Shown: positions 41,080 through 48,408 of the stretch, one piece after another
How the letters are laid out: every line of letters begins with the position of its first letter
Position numbering within the stretch: the stretch's first letter is position 1
Source: Naegleria lovaniensis
Taxonomy: Eukaryota; Heterolobosea; Eutetramitea; Acrasida; Naegleriidae
Assembly (NCBI RefSeq): GCF_003324165.1
Contig: NW_025407854.1
Location: 426,766 to 490,765, forward strand
Length of the DNA stretch: 64,000 nucleotides
Reading direction: 5' to 3'
Translations under genes and position numbers: made by a program
Notes under the pieces: generated by a model
What the model saw: only the letters and a program-made list of their open reading frames with translations
What the model was told of the DNA's origin: nothing
The model's database searches: none

Positions 41080-44000
41080 TTATTTTCTTTCTGAATACAT
41101 GGTAGATAGTGAATCAAACGATTTCACACTTTTCATCATTGATTTTTGCTGCTCTTCAACTGTCGAAGTATTATTCATTCCATTGTTCATTGCTGGAAAA
41201 AAATTGGAAGTGACTGGTAGAGGAGAATAAATGCTCAAATCTTCAGTCATTGAAGGTGTGTTATTCCCATAATGTCCATAATGATGATGACTAGATAAAA
41301 GTAAGGGTGTAAAGACAGGTTTCCTTGGAGATTCGCCTCCATGCATTACATTATGTTGCATGAATGGATAAAATTCGTGTTGAATATTTCCTAATGAAGC
41401 TTTTCTTGGTGATGCTGTCCTCATTGTATGACTGGTGGTAGATGGTGTTGTCGTCGTGCCATGATGATTGTTGCTCGTATTCATATGTTGTGTCGACGAT
41501 GACGGATTGGCATGTTGCGAAAAATCGACCATACTACTCTTTTCCAATCTCCGCAAAATAATTCGATGAAATTCCTCAACAAATTTAGCTTGTCTTGAAT
41601 TTTCAATCACTCTAGGGCCTCTCACAAGTTTGACAGCATTCATTGAAGTTTTTGCATCCATTGCCAATGGTTGACGTAATAGTAATAGGCATGAAGCAAG
41701 TGTTCCAGAGCGACCTAAACCAGATACTGAGACAATGACGACATCTTCTAAATTCACATCAATGGCTTCTCGCATCCATTCACATAATAATATGGTATAA
41801 TTCATTGGAGGAGGATGCCTTTGCTGAACAGGTATAAATTTCGTTTCAATGCCCATGTGAGCGGCTTCTTGAATTAAATCTCCAGAAAGTCTTTCGAGTT
41901 CTTCTTGTGTCGCTAAAATGACAAGTTTTTTTACATTATTCTTTTGAAGTACTCGCAAATCATTTTGCATGACACCGCCGTGAGAAGGTCTACCTGGTAA
42001 AATGGAAATTCCTAACCGACCATGTTTACGTTTTTTGCTGGTTGCATGACTTTCTTCGCTGTTAACACATGGATCAGATGCTGTTGTTGAGTTTGTGGCG
42101 GTCACCTGTTCATGATGTGGTGACTTTTCCGCTGGATGAGGAGTCCATATCGAATCAACGCTTTTCAAATTAATCCAATCAATATGATACTTGTCATTGC
42201 GGAAGGCCTTTCGTTCAATCTTTTGTGCCAATGCACAAGCAGTAGCAACCGCCCATGCTCTCTGATAGATACTGAGAGAGCTCAATGTTGCGCTATGCAG
42301 TGCATATCTCAATAACACGATATCGAGTTGAACTGGATTACGGTCACCCCTCACCAGTCGTTTCGTAATGCTGCGTAATTCAACAACAGCTTCCCAGGCT
42401 CGTTTCAATTTTTCAGATTTCAAACCAACAAGCGTGATGGGCAAAGGTTCAGCTAAATCCTTCACTGAAATCAGTTCCTTAGTAATGATGAGAGCCTCTT
42501 CAAGTTCCTTCTCGCTATCAATGGGCGTATATTCAAAGACAATATCGTTTTCTAATTTTGCTACATCTTTCAAAATGTGAGTTCTTTCTGTGTATTCAAA
42601 ATCAATGAGCCACACATTTTCATTGGTATCTAAAATTATATTTCTGCCATTCAAATCTCCATGAACGTAGGAGACATAGTGGAACGATTTTGCCAAATAA
42701 CCTTGTTTGATTTTCGGAAGTGAGTCACGAAGGAAATGAACAATATTTTTCACTCGAAAACCACCTGGAAATATTAAATACTTTTCTTCGCCATGTTGTT
42801 GCTGTGTTGGTGGAATTATGTAGATAGTGGTGGTGCTACCACCGTTTGGAATCATTGAGGAAGGACTTTGAGAATTGGATGGAGAGTGCGAAGTCGTTTG
42901 ACTCGTGCTTGAAGTCGACGAAGAGCTTGTAGTACTACTACTTGTCGAGTTTTTCAAATTTTGTTGAGAATTCTGTTGTTCCTGTGTGAATCTATCCCAC
43001 TCTTCTGGTGATATTTCAAAAATACTTCCTTGAGCTGATGAGGGCTCAATAGATGATGTGGGAGTTGAAGTGACAGAGGTTGTTGGAGTAGTAGCAGTAG
43101 TGGTTGATAGGATCTGTGATTTTGGAATTTGTCTTGGCTCAAAGAAGGAACAATCTCGCAATTCAGAAAATATGGAAACGATTCGACCTCGTACGGCATC
43201 TGGATTGTCAGTTCCACCTGTATGCCAGGCCCAGCCCTTTCCATCAAAATCATACGTCTCAAACAAGTCAATTTGTTCAGACACGGCTGCATCATAAAAT
43301 CTTCCCAAGACTCCATAAAATACACGGTGAAGAATGGATTTGATGGTCGACATGCTTCCTCCACTCATGTACAATTCTCGAAATGATGATGGCGATCGTT
43401 TCATGCTCGCTGCTGCAATGTGAGGTGAGGTTGGACTTTTGGGAGACATTAAATCTGAATCTGACGATGCAAATTGAAAATCATCCTCAATCATGCTGGC
43501 GTAGGCAAATTTAATGCCTGCTCGATCTTTCAATTCACAAAATCCACGAATTTGAGGTGCGTTATTTCCCAAAATTTCCTCAACCTTTTCGAAATTAACA
43601 CGTTCTCTTGTAATGGGACCTCTTCTTCCAATCTTGAGAATGGACGTAGCTTGTACGTGTCCCATCAAATCTTTGGAACGAACTTTGAAAACCCAAGATC
43701 CAGAGTGACCTCCAGACAATCGTGAAAAAACAACATCTGTACTATCATGATATAATAAACAAATGATTTCCTTATCCACATCTGAAAGTTTGTTCAAATC
43801 ATCACCTATTGATTTCCAATGAAAACAAGGCATTATTTGATGTGCTACATTCTCATCGTTACTAGTGCCAAGTTGTGAGCCGCATTCTTCACTATCCAGC
43901 ATATCCAGAATGGGTATTGGAGAGACTTCAGAAACAGCGCTCAAATCTTGTGGCGTACTGGGCGAACGAACTAATTGTTTAAATAAAAATCTGCCGCTAC

Positions 44001-45480
44001 TAACTATTGAACTACTTGGGGTTTTCTTCCACCAGAATGGTATGAGCCATTCCTGGAAGTCACACAAGCTATAAAATATTGAAACATTGAAATATCGTTC
44101 TAATTGTTGGAGACTGGAAAAGTGTTGATGTCGTGATCGGCTTGCAGTCAAAGCTGAGCATGTGGAAAGAAGCTTGGAAAAATGTGAAAATCTCGTTGAA
44201 AGCTCATAAAATAAATATTGAATCGTGGATTCGGTCCAAACACCAATCACACCAATTTTAACATTGAGCTTTTTGTGAGTGCCATTGGTTAAATTTTCTG
44301 CATCGAGTTGTTTTTGCTTTCTCTCGATGGCTTTTGCAATTTTTGTCTCTAAATCCGTGCCATGGAATGCATTGACATTGGTAATATTTACGTAGGACTC
44401 ATTGTCTCTGTTCGGTATGTCCTTATCGAGATTCAAAACTAAATTTGCTCCTGAGGTGCCTTTCACTGAGAACAAGCCGTTGCAAATATATGGTACTTCA
44501 GGAGTTGTTGGAGAAGTTGCATTAGCACTGGAAGGATGGTGTTTTTTGTTCTGACTTTCGCTACTGCTATTATTGTGATGACTTGACATTTTACACTTGT
44601 TTTGATCAATTTCATTCCAAAATCTCACATGAATAATTTCCAAATGATTTGAGGATTGTCTTCGAGCCCAGCTCATGAATGATTTCAATGGACCACTCTT
44701 ATAGTCACTTCCGAGTAGACGTTGTGACTCGGGTTTTCCAACGTGCATGAACGTGCTCGAGTCGTAATCTAATGAGCTCGAATAATTGGTACCAACAGAC
44801 CCTGGAAACTTTCCAATGAAATCATTTTGTAAACAGCATGTAATAAGTATTCCAAAATCTTCTACTTGATTTTCCGAGTTGGATGCAATACCATGGTTTT
44901 GACTCGAGGTATCACCTGAAGACAAAATATTACTAGCAGAAGGATTATTCACGGGAGTGAGAGGAGAAGAATTTTGACCAGTATTGGTTGCATTCAATGT
45001 TGGTGATGAAACGGAACTGCTCAACAATGGAGAGGAGGATGGATAGGTGGCAGAAGTCGACGATCCCGAATGCACTGATGCTGAGGCTGAACTTTTTATC
45101 GGGTACGGAAGAGCACTACTACTCGAGGTGGTACGAGGACTTCCATAATGATGATGAAAATGATTGGGCCCACCACTGCTGCTATTACTGCTACTGCTGC
45201 TAGATGAATTTGAGAGGTGGTTGTTGTTATTATTGTTAAAGATCAGATGAGTAGAGGCGAGAGATGTGGTTGATGAAGGATTTAAAGATGGAACAGATAT
45301 GAAAAGGCCTTTCGGGTTTGAATTTTGAGAGGCCATAATGACTGAGGCTGGTGTTTGGGGATCTGGAATTTGTGATAACAACGAGGGTGAAGAAATGGAA
45401 TGATGTGGTGATATGATGGATTCAATTTGCTGATGTTGTGCCTGCTCTTCGTTGTTGAGGGTTGTATTGATCAACGACAT
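41080..45480 (-). CDS. isochorismatase-like / APH-like kinase / phosphatase-like three-domain protein
   Basis: A 1466-residue single-exon protein; the ATG at 45480 is preferred, 45627 being an in-frame alternative. After ~200 Ser/Asn-rich residues there is an isochorismatase-type hydrolase fold (~206-475): ILITCCLQNDFI at the DxQND motif, with the first Asp replaced by Cys, and GVWTEST where the family has its Cys. Next (~585-1000) is an aminoglycoside-phosphotransferase-like kinase fold with SILKIGRRG (Lys), HGDLNGRNIIL and LIDFEY, all apparently functional. The C-terminus (~1160-1360) is a dual-specificity/tyrosine-phosphatase fold; the P-loop VIVSVSGLGRSGT has Ser where the nucleophile Cys belongs. 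This resembles bacterial predicted conflict/ternary-complex proteins. A GTGAGC donor-like site on the coding strand near 45628 hints at a 5' UTR intron. Confidence 0.75.
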   Translation of the reverse strand: MSLINTTLNNEEQAQHQQIESIISPHHSISSPSLLSQIPDPQTPASVIMASQNSNPKGLFISVPSLNPSSTTSLASTHLIFNNNNNNHLSNSSSSSSSNSSSGGPNHFHHHYGSPRTTSSSSALPYPIKSSASASVHSGSSTSATYPSSSPLLSSSVSSPTLNATNTGQNSSPLTPVNNPSASNILSSGDTSSQNHGIASNSENQVEDFGILITCCLQNDFIGKFPGSVGTNYSSSLDYDSSTFMHVGKPESQRLLGSDYKSGPLKSFMSWARRQSSNHLEIIHVRFWNEIDQNKCKMSSHHNNSSSESQNKKHHPSSANATSPTTPEVPYICNGLFSVKGTSGANLVLNLDKDIPNRDNESYVNITNVNAFHGTDLETKIAKAIERKQKQLDAENLTNGTHKKLNVKIGVIGVWTESTIQYLFYELSTRFSHFSKLLSTCSALTASRSRHQHFSSLQQLERYFNVSIFYSLCDFQEWLIPFWWKKTPSSSIVSSGRFLFKQLVRSPSTPQDLSAVSEVSPIPILDMLDSEECGSQLGTSNDENVAHQIMPCFHWKSIGDDLNKLSDVDKEIICLLYHDSTDVVFSRLSGGHSGSWVFKVRSKDLMGHVQATSILKIGRRGPITRERVNFEKVEEILGNNAPQIRGFCELKDRAGIKFAYASMIEDDFQFASSDSDLMSPKSPTSPHIAAASMKRSPSSFRELYMSGGSMSTIKSILHRVFYGVLGRFYDAAVSEQIDLFETYDFDGKGWAWHTGGTDNPDAVRGRIVSIFSELRDCSFFEPRQIPKSQILSTTTATTPTTSVTSTPTSSIEPSSAQGSIFEISPEEWDRFTQEQQNSQQNLKNSTSSSTTSSSSTSSTSQTTSHSPSNSQSPSSMIPNGGSTTTIYIIPPTQQQHGEEKYLIFPGGFRVKNIVHFLRDSLPKIKQGYLAKSFHYVSYVHGDLNGRNIILDTNENVWLIDFEYTERTHILKDVAKLENDIVFEYTPIDSEKELEEALIITKELISVKDLAEPLPITLVGLKSEKLKRAWEAVVELRSITKRLVRGDRNPVQLDIVLLRYALHSATLSSLSIYQRAWAVATACALAQKIERKAFRNDKYHIDWINLKSVDSIWTPHPAEKSPHHEQVTATNSTTASDPCVNSEESHATSKKRKHGRLGISILPGRPSHGGVMQNDLRVLQKNNVKKLVILATQEELERLSGDLIQEAAHMGIETKFIPVQQRHPPPMNYTILLCEWMREAIDVNLEDVVIVSVSGLGRSGTLASCLLLLRQPLAMDAKTSMNAVKLVRGPRVIENSRQAKFVEEFHRIILRRLEKSSMVDFSQHANPSSSTQHMNTSNNHHGTTTTPSTTSHTMRTASPRKASLGNIQHEFYPFMQHNVMHGGESPRKPVFTPLLLSSHHHYGHYGNNTPSMTEDLSIYSPLPVTSNFFPAMNNGMNNTSTVEEQQKSMMKSVKSFDSLSTMYSERK

Positions 45481-46004: not shown

Positions 46005-48279
46005 TTATACCAATTTAGTATTTTCAGAAATGTTATAGAGTGGAATTTCACTGTTTCGATTCGAATTGTTTTCTCCATGGTGAGAATTGTCCAGCTCTTT
46101 GGTTGATGACAATCGATCAAATCGAACATACTTGTCCACAATTGCTACACAAACAGTATCTCCATAAACATTGACACAAGTTCTGAAACGATCTAAAAAC
46201 CAATCAACAGCCAAAATGAGAGAAACAGCTTCCTTTGGTAATCCAACAGATTCAATTACGAGAATAAGTGTGACGAGTCCAGCCTCTGGTATTCCTGCAG
46301 CTCCAATACTAGCAAGTGTTGCAGTGACTATTGAAAAATGTTCATCGATTCGTTAATATTATTATTGTCAACATATGAATTCATAACAAAATGAAACTTG
46401 AAAAAAAATGAAACTTACTTGCCACAACAAACATATCTCCAATTCCAAGACTGACTTGCAAGGATTGTGCAATGAAAATTGCAGCAACCGCTTCATACAA
46501 GGCAGTACCATCCATATTCACAGTAGAGCCTAATGGTAATACAAATGAAGCGACTTCTTTTTGAGCTCCAATTTTCTCTTCACAACATTTCATGGTCAAT
46601 GGAAGAGTTGCAGAACTGCTGGACGTTCCGAGCTGAACATTAAATCACACAAAGTAGTTCACAATTCAATAAACGTTTGCATGTAATAAAATTACATGTC
46701 TTGTTCATGAGTCCGCTTTGAAAAAACTTACAGCTGTCAAAAGAGCAGGAAAAACACTCCAAACATGTCTCAAAATATTCTTTCTCACCAATGCTAAATA
46801 AATTATGGTTAATGTAACGAATGAGTGAATCACCAAACCACTCAGCACTGTGAGCATATAAATTAACAATTGACTCAAAGATTGAAGTAAATATTTTTCT
46901 TTCACACACCGCCAAATAATTAAGAACATAATACCAATAGGTGCATAACAAATAATAAACGCAACCATTTTCAAAATAATCTCATTCAACGATTTGAAAA
47001 ATTTGATCACTGGTTTGGCAGGCTCTCCAATTTGAATCATTACAATTGCCATAAATATTGAAAATACAATGAGTCCAAGGACATTGACACTTCCTCCATT
47101 TTCGGCCGATGCTGCGTCAATGAGATTGGATGGAATAAAACTTTCAATAATAGAAACAATTTGCTTGTAGGATGATGATGAATTTGTGTGTGAATTATTT
47201 CCTGTTGACATAATTTCACTGGAAACAATTTCTTGCCTTTTCAATAATAGCCCTCTCAGAGGATACAATTCTCCATTCAATGAAATCATATTGGAAGGCG
47301 AGAGTGGGGTGGTGACAACTTGTGGAGACGTCGAAACTGCTGTTCTTGTTGATGAGATGGCAGTAGAATTTGTAGTTGGATCATTGTTAATCACAACTTG
47401 TCCTGGCTTGATGACATTGACCATGATTAAACCTGTAATGACTGCAATAATGGTAGTCACTAAATAGGTGGATAATGTTAGTAAGGCCATTTTCAATAGT
47501 GCTTTGTGTTTTTGCTTCCTGAAATTGGCCATATCACTTGTATGTTGTGTGAGAGATGTTGCCGAAACTGTCTCTTCTCTCGCATTTACACTATCGACAA
47601 TTGATGTAATTGAACTAATCATACTCGATACAATTAATGGTACAATTAAACAATTCAAAGCTCTCAATAATAAGTCTCCTGGTAATTTCACATACGCAAC
47701 GACTTCAGGAGTAATTTCAATAGTTGAATTTTCTTCACTCGCTGCTACATTGACACTGACTCCTATAATCAATCCCAACACCACTCCAATCAATGTAAAA
47801 ATTAACAATAAATTATGAAAGAGACAATTAGCTAAACTTTTCACTCGAGTTTTCCAATTTTTTATCGACTCCAAACGATGAGATTGAATCGGATTTGAAT
47901 GTTCATGATGATCGTCATCATTTTGTTGTTGATCCAACTGTGTTCCGTCATGTCGAGAAGTGAGACTATCATTCCGAGCATCCAAATTCCCTTCGTGCTC
48001 TAGAGGTTGCACATTTTCTTCCAAATCTTGTTCATTCTCTAACAAAATTTTATGTCTTCGTAATCGACTGGTCGAGTGCTGATGATGATGATGAACAGTA
48101 GCAGACATGATCGTGGTGGGCATTGATGATGATTGTTGAGATAGCTCGATATCCTCCATAAATGTGGGATTTGAAAAAGTTTCATAACTCGTCATCGGAG
48201 AAGTATGAGGTGGTTGTTGAGAATTTGTTGTTGTCGTCATGATGATGTTGGAGGATGGAGAAGCCTCCTGTGGTTCCAT
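46005..48279 (-). CDS. SLC1/EAAT-type dicarboxylate/amino-acid:cation symporter
   Basis: Exons 48279-46732, 46632-46419 and 46327-46005 join in frame to about 694 residues (donors GTAAGT twice, acceptors TTCAG and AATAG). The ATG follows a run of A. After a ~140-residue His/Ser/Gln-rich cytosolic N-terminus come multiple spans and the SLC1 hallmark motifs: [10 protein letters not shown] (hairpin 1, ~519), [11 protein letters not shown] (~555, the NMDGT Na+ site) and [14 protein letters not shown] with [18 protein letters not shown] in the last exon. This Asp and Arg pair binds dicarboxylic amino acids in EAATs. It imports glutamate/aspartate or neutral amino acids with Na+ or H+. An extended loop after the second span, rich in Ser/Thr/Asn, is likely glycosylated and extracellular. 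Confidence 0.92.
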
Positions 48280-48408
48280 TTTTTTGAGATGAGAATTAAT
48301 TGGATTAGACAGTAGGGAGGATGTTTTTTGATAATACAATAGGATAAGAATTAGAAAAAGCAGTCTACGATATATATAGCTCAGAAAATTAGATTTATTA
48401 AACATACA

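Follow-up and report, generated by a model that had tools for sequence, protein, structure and literature searches.

The window analysed here comprises 64,000 nucleotides of contig NW_025407854.1 of the amoeba Naegleria lovaniensis. Its reverse strand carries, in a single unbroken frame, a gene in which an isochorismatase fold is followed by a TCAD9/APH-type kinase and a KAP-like dual-specificity phosphatase (DSP) fold (coding frame 41083-45480; Table 1). A preliminary description, made from the sequence, had read these three folds into one eukaryotic protein. This proved correct, as all three were matched, the isochorismatase and APH-type parts among them. Its picture of three enzymes in a row, however, stands only as far as the folds are concerned and is otherwise misleading, since the kinase alone retains its catalytic residues.

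The first domain belongs to the isochorismatase fold according to its homologues and to structure matches of the window domain. The kinase was assigned by sequence, the TCAD9 model (PF19974) scoring 137.7 bits against Pfam's curated cut-off of 40 (E-value 8e-40). Like the first fold, the third was assigned by structure, and structure and residue table together give a DSP fold whose catalytic Cys is replaced. No kinase-fold match appeared among the best 50 rows of the structure searches with the bacterial homologue at locus L014 and with the core of the window protein; these rows are filled by the other two domains, and the kinase was not searched alone.

Within the N. lovaniensis genome, 30.7 Mb in 97 contigs, the window gene is the sole match of the TCAD9 model, and the isochorismatase model finds three places besides it. 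The relative in Naegleria fowleri begins at the identical Met; identity is 82% in the multiple alignment and 86% in the local alignment of the search. Contamination was set aside as a source of the gene: it lies inside a contig of about 490 kb, flanked on one side by an SDF-transporter gene and on the other by a gene with a weak PHD-finger match (22.9 bits, cut-off 24), and it has relatives in N. fowleri, Willaertia and Acrasis. The transporter gene, sodium:dicarboxylate symporter-like (window 46005-48405, minus strand), seemingly has its second exon at 46005-46352, as read from the sequence.

Table 1. Features of the three-domain gene, in window coordinates.
Feature	Position	Strand	Basis or remark
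Whole gene, single unbroken frame, 1466 residues	41080..45480	-	ATG at 45480, stop codon 41080-41082; orthologue P0003 shares the start Met
Ser/Asn-rich N-terminal tail, residues 1-204, of low conservation (53% to N. fowleri)	44869..45480	-	
Isochorismatase/nicotinamidase-fold domain, residues ~206-482, lacking both the Asp-Lys-Cys triad and the bacterial D/H/H site	44035..44865	-	Homologues, residue table, structure
Thr419 at the isochorismatase catalytic Cys position (Lys in 161/161 bacterial rows)	44224..44226	-	Alignment
TCAD9/APH-like kinase domain, residues ~555-1096, with two low-complexity inserts	42193..43818	-	Pfam and model
Lys616, predicted ATP-anchoring lysine, invariant in 169/169 rows	43633..43635	-	Alignment
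Low-complexity insert, residues 669-697	43390..43476	-	Alignment, model, conservation
Eukaryote-specific insertion DGKGWAWHTGGTDNP, residues 746-760	43201..43245	-	Alignment
Low-complexity Ser/Thr-rich insert, residues ~785-895, mostly of low model confidence	42796..43128	-	Alignment, model, conservation
Kinase catalytic loop HGDLNGRN, residues 940-947	42640..42663	-	Alignment
Asp960, predicted metal-binding aspartate of LIDFEY	42601..42603	-	Alignment
KAP-like dual-specificity-phosphatase-fold domain, residues ~1096-1314 including linker	41539..42195	-	Sequence and structure
Ser1251 at the phosphatase catalytic Cys position, loop VSVSGLGRSG (Cys in 159/159 covering bacterial rows)	41728..41730	-	Alignment
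C-terminal low-complexity tail	41083..41538	-	

Relatives and origin of the three-domain protein

Besides the window's own protein, the first protein search returned six relatives: that of N. fowleri, two further close ones, those of Willaertia magna and Acrasis kona, and a protein of 818 residues. A profile built from these first relatives added P0009 and P0010, the latter a EukProt transcript. Of 130 pattern matches in a scan of bacterial and archaeal species genomes, 11 loci were confirmed; all 11 are bacterial, with identities of 30-34% in the best segment. For seven of these loci the match spans virtually the entire query; at L008 the contig breaks off within the phosphatase loop, and L010, L011 and L016 stop before that point. 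The Planctomycetota copies (L011:9989-11860 and L016:6847-8706) stop after the kinase with no in-frame phosphatase, which may be a real loss or an assembly fault.

A bacterial profile found 1265 proteins at E <= 1e-5 among 7995 scored, and for the 120 that were listed coverage of the query is 95-100%. Spirochaetales, Leptospira, Bacteroidia, Cytophagaceae, Anaerolineae, Polyangiaceae, Sericytochromatia and Blackallbacteria are represented among the matches listed, and complete bacterial proteins of about 760 residues come from Spirochaetota, Myxococcota, Bacteroidota, Sericytochromatia and others. In the protein searches the architecture turned up in few eukaryotes, so that the broad eukaryotic occurrence which would have spoken against the preliminary description was not seen; since each search scored about 8000 candidates and 120 of the 1265 matches were listed, further eukaryotes may be hidden.

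Frequencies were obtained from genome groups that are samples of each phylum. Spirochaetota (the phylum of G007) hold 22 full-length genes, seed included, plus one split over two contigs, in 198 sampled genomes; the Myxococcota group (phylum of G004) 14 in 235, four of the 14 being seeds and one of the 14 cut by a contig end; the Sericytochromatia/Cyanobacteria group (phylum of G008) five, one of them the seed, and one in pieces in 194; and Bacteroidota (phylum of G009) a single one in 296, which is the seed itself. The remaining matches in these groups are partial and mostly cover the phosphatase part. Overall, the family is widely but unevenly distributed among bacteria. In G784, of the Sericytochromatia/Cyanobacteria group, several pieces of it are spread over different contigs, which may reflect a fragmented or duplicated copy. 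The viral-contig scan gave no relatives from 130 pattern matches, and the best 50 rows from a viral structure library were mostly phosphatases or unnamed proteins, one labelled NADAR, with no viral source seen among them.

Other architectures built on the same kinase were also encountered. Two genes of the Myxococcota group (L142:4353-6992 and L143:3549-6092) combine an isochorismatase-like N-terminus, recognised by a match of the A4 profile, with a TCAD9 kinase and a C-terminal Nudix domain, the last above its cut-off in L142 only. Both stand directly after an inositol monophosphatase gene, and in L142 a Band 7 protein gene lies upstream. Two genes of the Bacteroidota group (L144:4757-7045 and L145:4741-7026) carry a TCAD9 kinase with an N-terminal STAS domain.

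In a quick, midpoint-rooted tree of the full-length alignment (53 bacterial and eight eukaryotic rows), the eukaryotes form one group with an SH-like approximate likelihood ratio test (SH-aLRT) value of 100. P0010 is its first branch, and the group attaches on the bacterial side holding Myxococcota and Planctomycetota. A careful search restricted to the first two domains (45 rows) recovered the eukaryotic clade with a bootstrap of 99 and SH-aLRT of 93; it does not settle the place of the eukaryotes among bacteria, the outgroup being about ten changes per column away. Rooting with this outgroup of isochorismatase-TCAD9-Nudix proteins failed because it is too distant. The insertion motif GKGW...GG(S/T)D is present in all nine eukaryotic proteins (P0002-P0010), and GKGW is found in none of the 120 listed bacterial proteins and none of 42 bacterial loci.

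The best and simplest reading of these results is a single lateral transfer of the whole gene from bacteria. Lateral transfer had already been suggested in the preliminary description and is upheld by the full-length bacterial homologues, the single eukaryotic clade and the common insertion. The whole bacterial gene would most likely have entered, once, the ancestor of Heterolobosea and of the source of transcript P0010. The direction, from bacteria to eukaryotes, we infer from the far wider bacterial distribution, since the rooted tree leaves the eukaryotes' place among bacteria unsettled. Convergent assembly, which the same description had offered as well, would require a eukaryote to have joined three separately acquired genes, and the sole argument for it is that the architecture is rare among the eukaryotes found. 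Against this, bacterial homologues are collinear along the whole length at 30-34% identity, and the tree from the full-length alignment groups all eukaryotic rows. Since the complete three-part protein already exists in bacteria, the architecture did not originate in the eukaryote, and we rejected this explanation as exceedingly improbable.

Active sites and the proposed one-way kinase

Residues were compared in an alignment of 161 bacterial rows (120 proteins and 41 loci) and eight eukaryotic rows. In the kinase, both glycines of GG, Lys288, Glu303, His449, Asp451, Asn456 and Asp469 (L014 numbering) are kept in all 169 rows, although the invariance of bacterial residues, here and below, may be overstated because the bacterial rows were selected by similarity. 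With these residues in place, the kinase would be expected to be active.

The first domain differs in this respect. At the three places of the Asp-Lys-Cys triad the window protein has Cys, Ile and Thr. In bacteria, the Asp place is occupied by Cys in 158 of 161 rows (Ser in two, a gap in one), the Lys place by Ala, Ser, Thr or Cys in all 161, and the Cys place by Lys in all 161; the Cys place was taken from the homologue alignment, the Asp and Lys places by motif reading. D71, H73 and H90 align with RDWH...HC of a pyrazinamidase, and this nicotinamidase-type D/H/H set, which we take to be metal ligands, is kept in 161/161 bacterial rows and in P0010. The window has F/N/F instead, and all three positions are changed or deleted in seven of the eight eukaryotic rows, P0010 being the exception. 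A further Asp of the bacterial domain, D121, is invariant (161/161 rows).

In the CX5R loop of the phosphatase-fold domain, the catalytic Cys is present in 159/159 covering bacterial rows and replaced by Ser in all seven covering eukaryotic rows, window included. The Asp that we take, by analogy, to be the general acid is found in 159/159 bacterial rows versus one of seven eukaryotic ones (P0009). The eukaryotic domain retains its P-loop Arg together with the glycines of GLGR.

Despite these changes, the two altered domains remain under constraint. Between the window protein and that of N. fowleri, identity reaches 99% and 93% in the isochorismatase-like parts, 100, 95 and 94% in the kinase parts and 94% in the phosphatase-like part; outside the domains it is 53% and 65% in the tails, 88% and 49% in the linkers and 93% and 67% in the inserts. 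Compared with Willaertia, the values are 76 and 69% (isochorismatase-like), 91, 82 and 82% (kinase) and 68% (phosphatase-like), versus 13-46% for the tails, the measurable linker and the measurable insert. In the Acrasis comparison they are 41-44%, 50-65% and 38% for the three domains.

We consider it probable, judging from the residues and homologies described, that the protein is a eukaryotic branch of a bacterial three-domain protein and acts as a one-way ATP-dependent kinase with two binding-only pseudoenzyme domains. In bacteria, the chain would form a reversible phospho-switch: the isochorismatase-fold domain, with its hydrolase triad lost and D/H/H kept, would bind a ligand and tune the kinase, the kinase would phosphorylate a target, and the phosphatase in cis would remove the phosphate. 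The heterolobosean lineage would then have lost the D/H/H residues and the phosphatase nucleophile with both folds still constrained and the kinase residues intact, and it is for this combination that we propose one-way activity. In the amoeba protein, the two binding-only domains may set the target or the activity of the kinase, and the KAP-like domain, its nucleophile gone, would most likely hold a phosphorylated partner. A more far-reaching version is put forward tentatively, and we regard it as doubtful. Here the bacterial first domain would be a permuted active site (Cys at the Asp place, Lys at the nucleophile place, D/H/H plus D121), that is, a new catalytic or ligand-sensing site driving the in-cis kinase-phosphatase switch. 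Heterolobosean amoebae would have taken the whole device and decommissioned its sensor site and phosphatase, leaving a one-way kinase.

The retained P-loop Arg and GLGR Gly residues and the conserved folds would also suit a trifunctional enzyme, in which the two outer domains are still catalytic but by a changed chemistry, with Ser1251 serving as nucleophile and the first site remodelled. The standard trapping substitution in protein tyrosine phosphatases (PTPs) is, however, Ser for this Cys, the general-acid Asp is gone in six of seven rows, and the first domain of the window has neither Asp, Lys and Cys in place nor D/H/H; we therefore think such an enzyme unlikely.

A different question is what the kinase phosphorylates. 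It could be a soluble metabolite (sugar, inositol, nucleoside or amide-like) bound by the first domain, a view to which we give somewhat less than an even chance. APH, choline-kinase and Kdo-kinase-like motif scores, the nicotinamidase-like first domain and the joining of TCAD9 kinase and Nudix beside an inositol monophosphatase gene in L142 and L143 all agree with it. On the other hand, no single-pathway enzyme recurs among the scanned neighbours. STAS domains are often targets of protein phosphorylation, and the TCAD9 proteins of L144 and L145 suggest a phosphorylated STAS partner. KAP itself acts on a protein kinase, as the title of the structure match 1fq1 also indicates. The Nudix and inositol monophosphatase partners found elsewhere would point to small molecules and STAS to proteins.

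Several points weigh against the one-way kinase of bacterial descent, among them the similarity-based choice of bacterial rows and the unsettled place of the eukaryotes in the second tree. Loss of the PTP Cys is no proof that all activity is gone, and P0009 retains the general-acid Asp. P0010, the eukaryotic row with D/H/H, ends before the phosphatase loop, so that it does not date the Cys loss. P0008 and P0009 are treated as heterolobosean-like by tree and common traits. At larger distance the altered domains fall clearly behind the kinase in conservation (in Acrasis 38-44% versus 50-65%).

Bacterial neighbours and the question of an immune role

A MoxR-type gene, confirmed by Pfam for L112 only, directly follows the three-domain gene in L111, L112 and L121 (three of 42 mapped loci, all from related Spirochaetota that have further genes in common there), and at L014 a YfbK-type vWA gene adjoins on the opposite strand; vWA/DUF58-type calls outside L112 are readings of the sequences. 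These MoxR- and vWA-type neighbours run counter to our own reading and are among the arguments for an immune or conflict-system sensor, which would be part of a bacterial vWA-MoxR 'ternary' system, domesticated by the amoeba for its defence against viruses or bacteria. The Pfam name of the kinase, 'Ternary complex associated domain 9', is another, and a legend in PMC10910872 (Science 2023) links TCAD9 to vWA-MoxR-VMAP systems. The other neighbours are varied, however. When the genes of 44 loci (42 of them usably mapped) were clustered, no partner gene recurred outside small groups of related genomes; several of the largest clusters seem to be mere shadows of the same gene, read on the reverse strand or in a shifted frame. 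A Pfam scan of 30 neighbour proteins from 21 loci found no recurring family pattern. Neighbours include ThiC, histidine biosynthesis, Cpn60, enoyl-CoA hydratase, an ArsA-like ATPase, a methyltransferase and protein kinases, genes for the last adjoining L006 and L013. At E <= 0.01 PADLOC assigned the window protein to no family; it gave weak matches (E-values 0.001-0.007) at the kinase motif in three of the four relatives scanned, and according to Pfam the window protein has no VMAP, vWA or MoxR domain. The genome holds a single TCAD9 gene, and between-species conservation is high, unlike arms-race divergence. An immune or conflict role received no support here, and we rate it as quite improbable. 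The link to ternary complexes raised in the preliminary description survives in the name of the kinase, and neither a conflict-system role nor the immune or effector-type sensor suggested there is supported.

Two further neighbourhoods are recorded here. In a metagenome-assembled genome of Spirochaetales, the three-domain gene is immediately preceded by a Cpn60/TCP-1-family gene (L012:8252-9892). In the related Spirochaetota loci L125, L126 and L128, a 472-residue protein with a GEKGQAKS-type P-loop (read from its sequence) is encoded upstream and ArsA-type ATPase genes downstream; the 472-residue protein of L125 has no Pfam match at 1e-5.

Comparison with known systems

Literature titles on TCAD9, on the domain combination and on Naegleria transfers included none describing this protein. 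Kaur et al. (2020; PMC7159879) treat ternary systems including a few APH-type kinases, and the main text contains neither 'isochorismatase' nor 'TCAD'. A passage of PMC8195603 mentions small-molecule kinases as effectors, a Plasmodium choline-kinase article (PMC11195610) names TCAD9 once, for a motif overlapping the choline-kinase domain, and the Acrasis genome paper (PMC11589745) discusses horizontal gene transfer without naming the three-domain protein in the passages found. A large bacterial family (1265 matches, 120 of them listed as near-full-length), annotated as isochorismatase or phosphatase and nowhere presented as a three-part protein in the papers found, joins within a single chain a kinase, a phosphatase and a putative sensor derived from a hydrolase. 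Its amoeba branch would be a natural experiment in which a whole device was transferred and two active sites were then lost, the third and all folds persisting, and would allow a clean test of how transferred enzymes turn into regulatory pseudoenzymes.

The window kinase is a clear member of TCAD9, named after the vWA-MoxR-VMAP ternary systems, but a genomic link to these exists in only three related loci and through one vWA neighbour. With nicotinamidases and isochorismatase hydrolases (3hb7, 1ilw, PncA) the first domain shares the fold, and the bacterial members share the RDWH...HC motif; it differs in that the triad is replaced at all three places in nearly every row and D/H/H is lost in seven of eight eukaryotic rows. 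From KAP/CDKN3 and archaeal PTPs the third domain is set apart by Ser in place of the catalytic Cys, the mostly lost general acid and the fusion to a kinase. The STYX-type pseudophosphatase (2r0b) ranks below these active DSPs in structure and has a different architecture. Closest are the bacterial PF00857-PF19974-DSP proteins, annotated as 'isochorismatase family protein' or 'protein-tyrosine phosphatase/nicotinamidase-related amidase'. They keep the phosphatase Cys and D/H/H, lack GKGW, and at about 760 residues are free of Ser-rich tails and inserts, but they have the same three domains in the same order, the same kinase residues and end-to-end homology with the amoeba protein.

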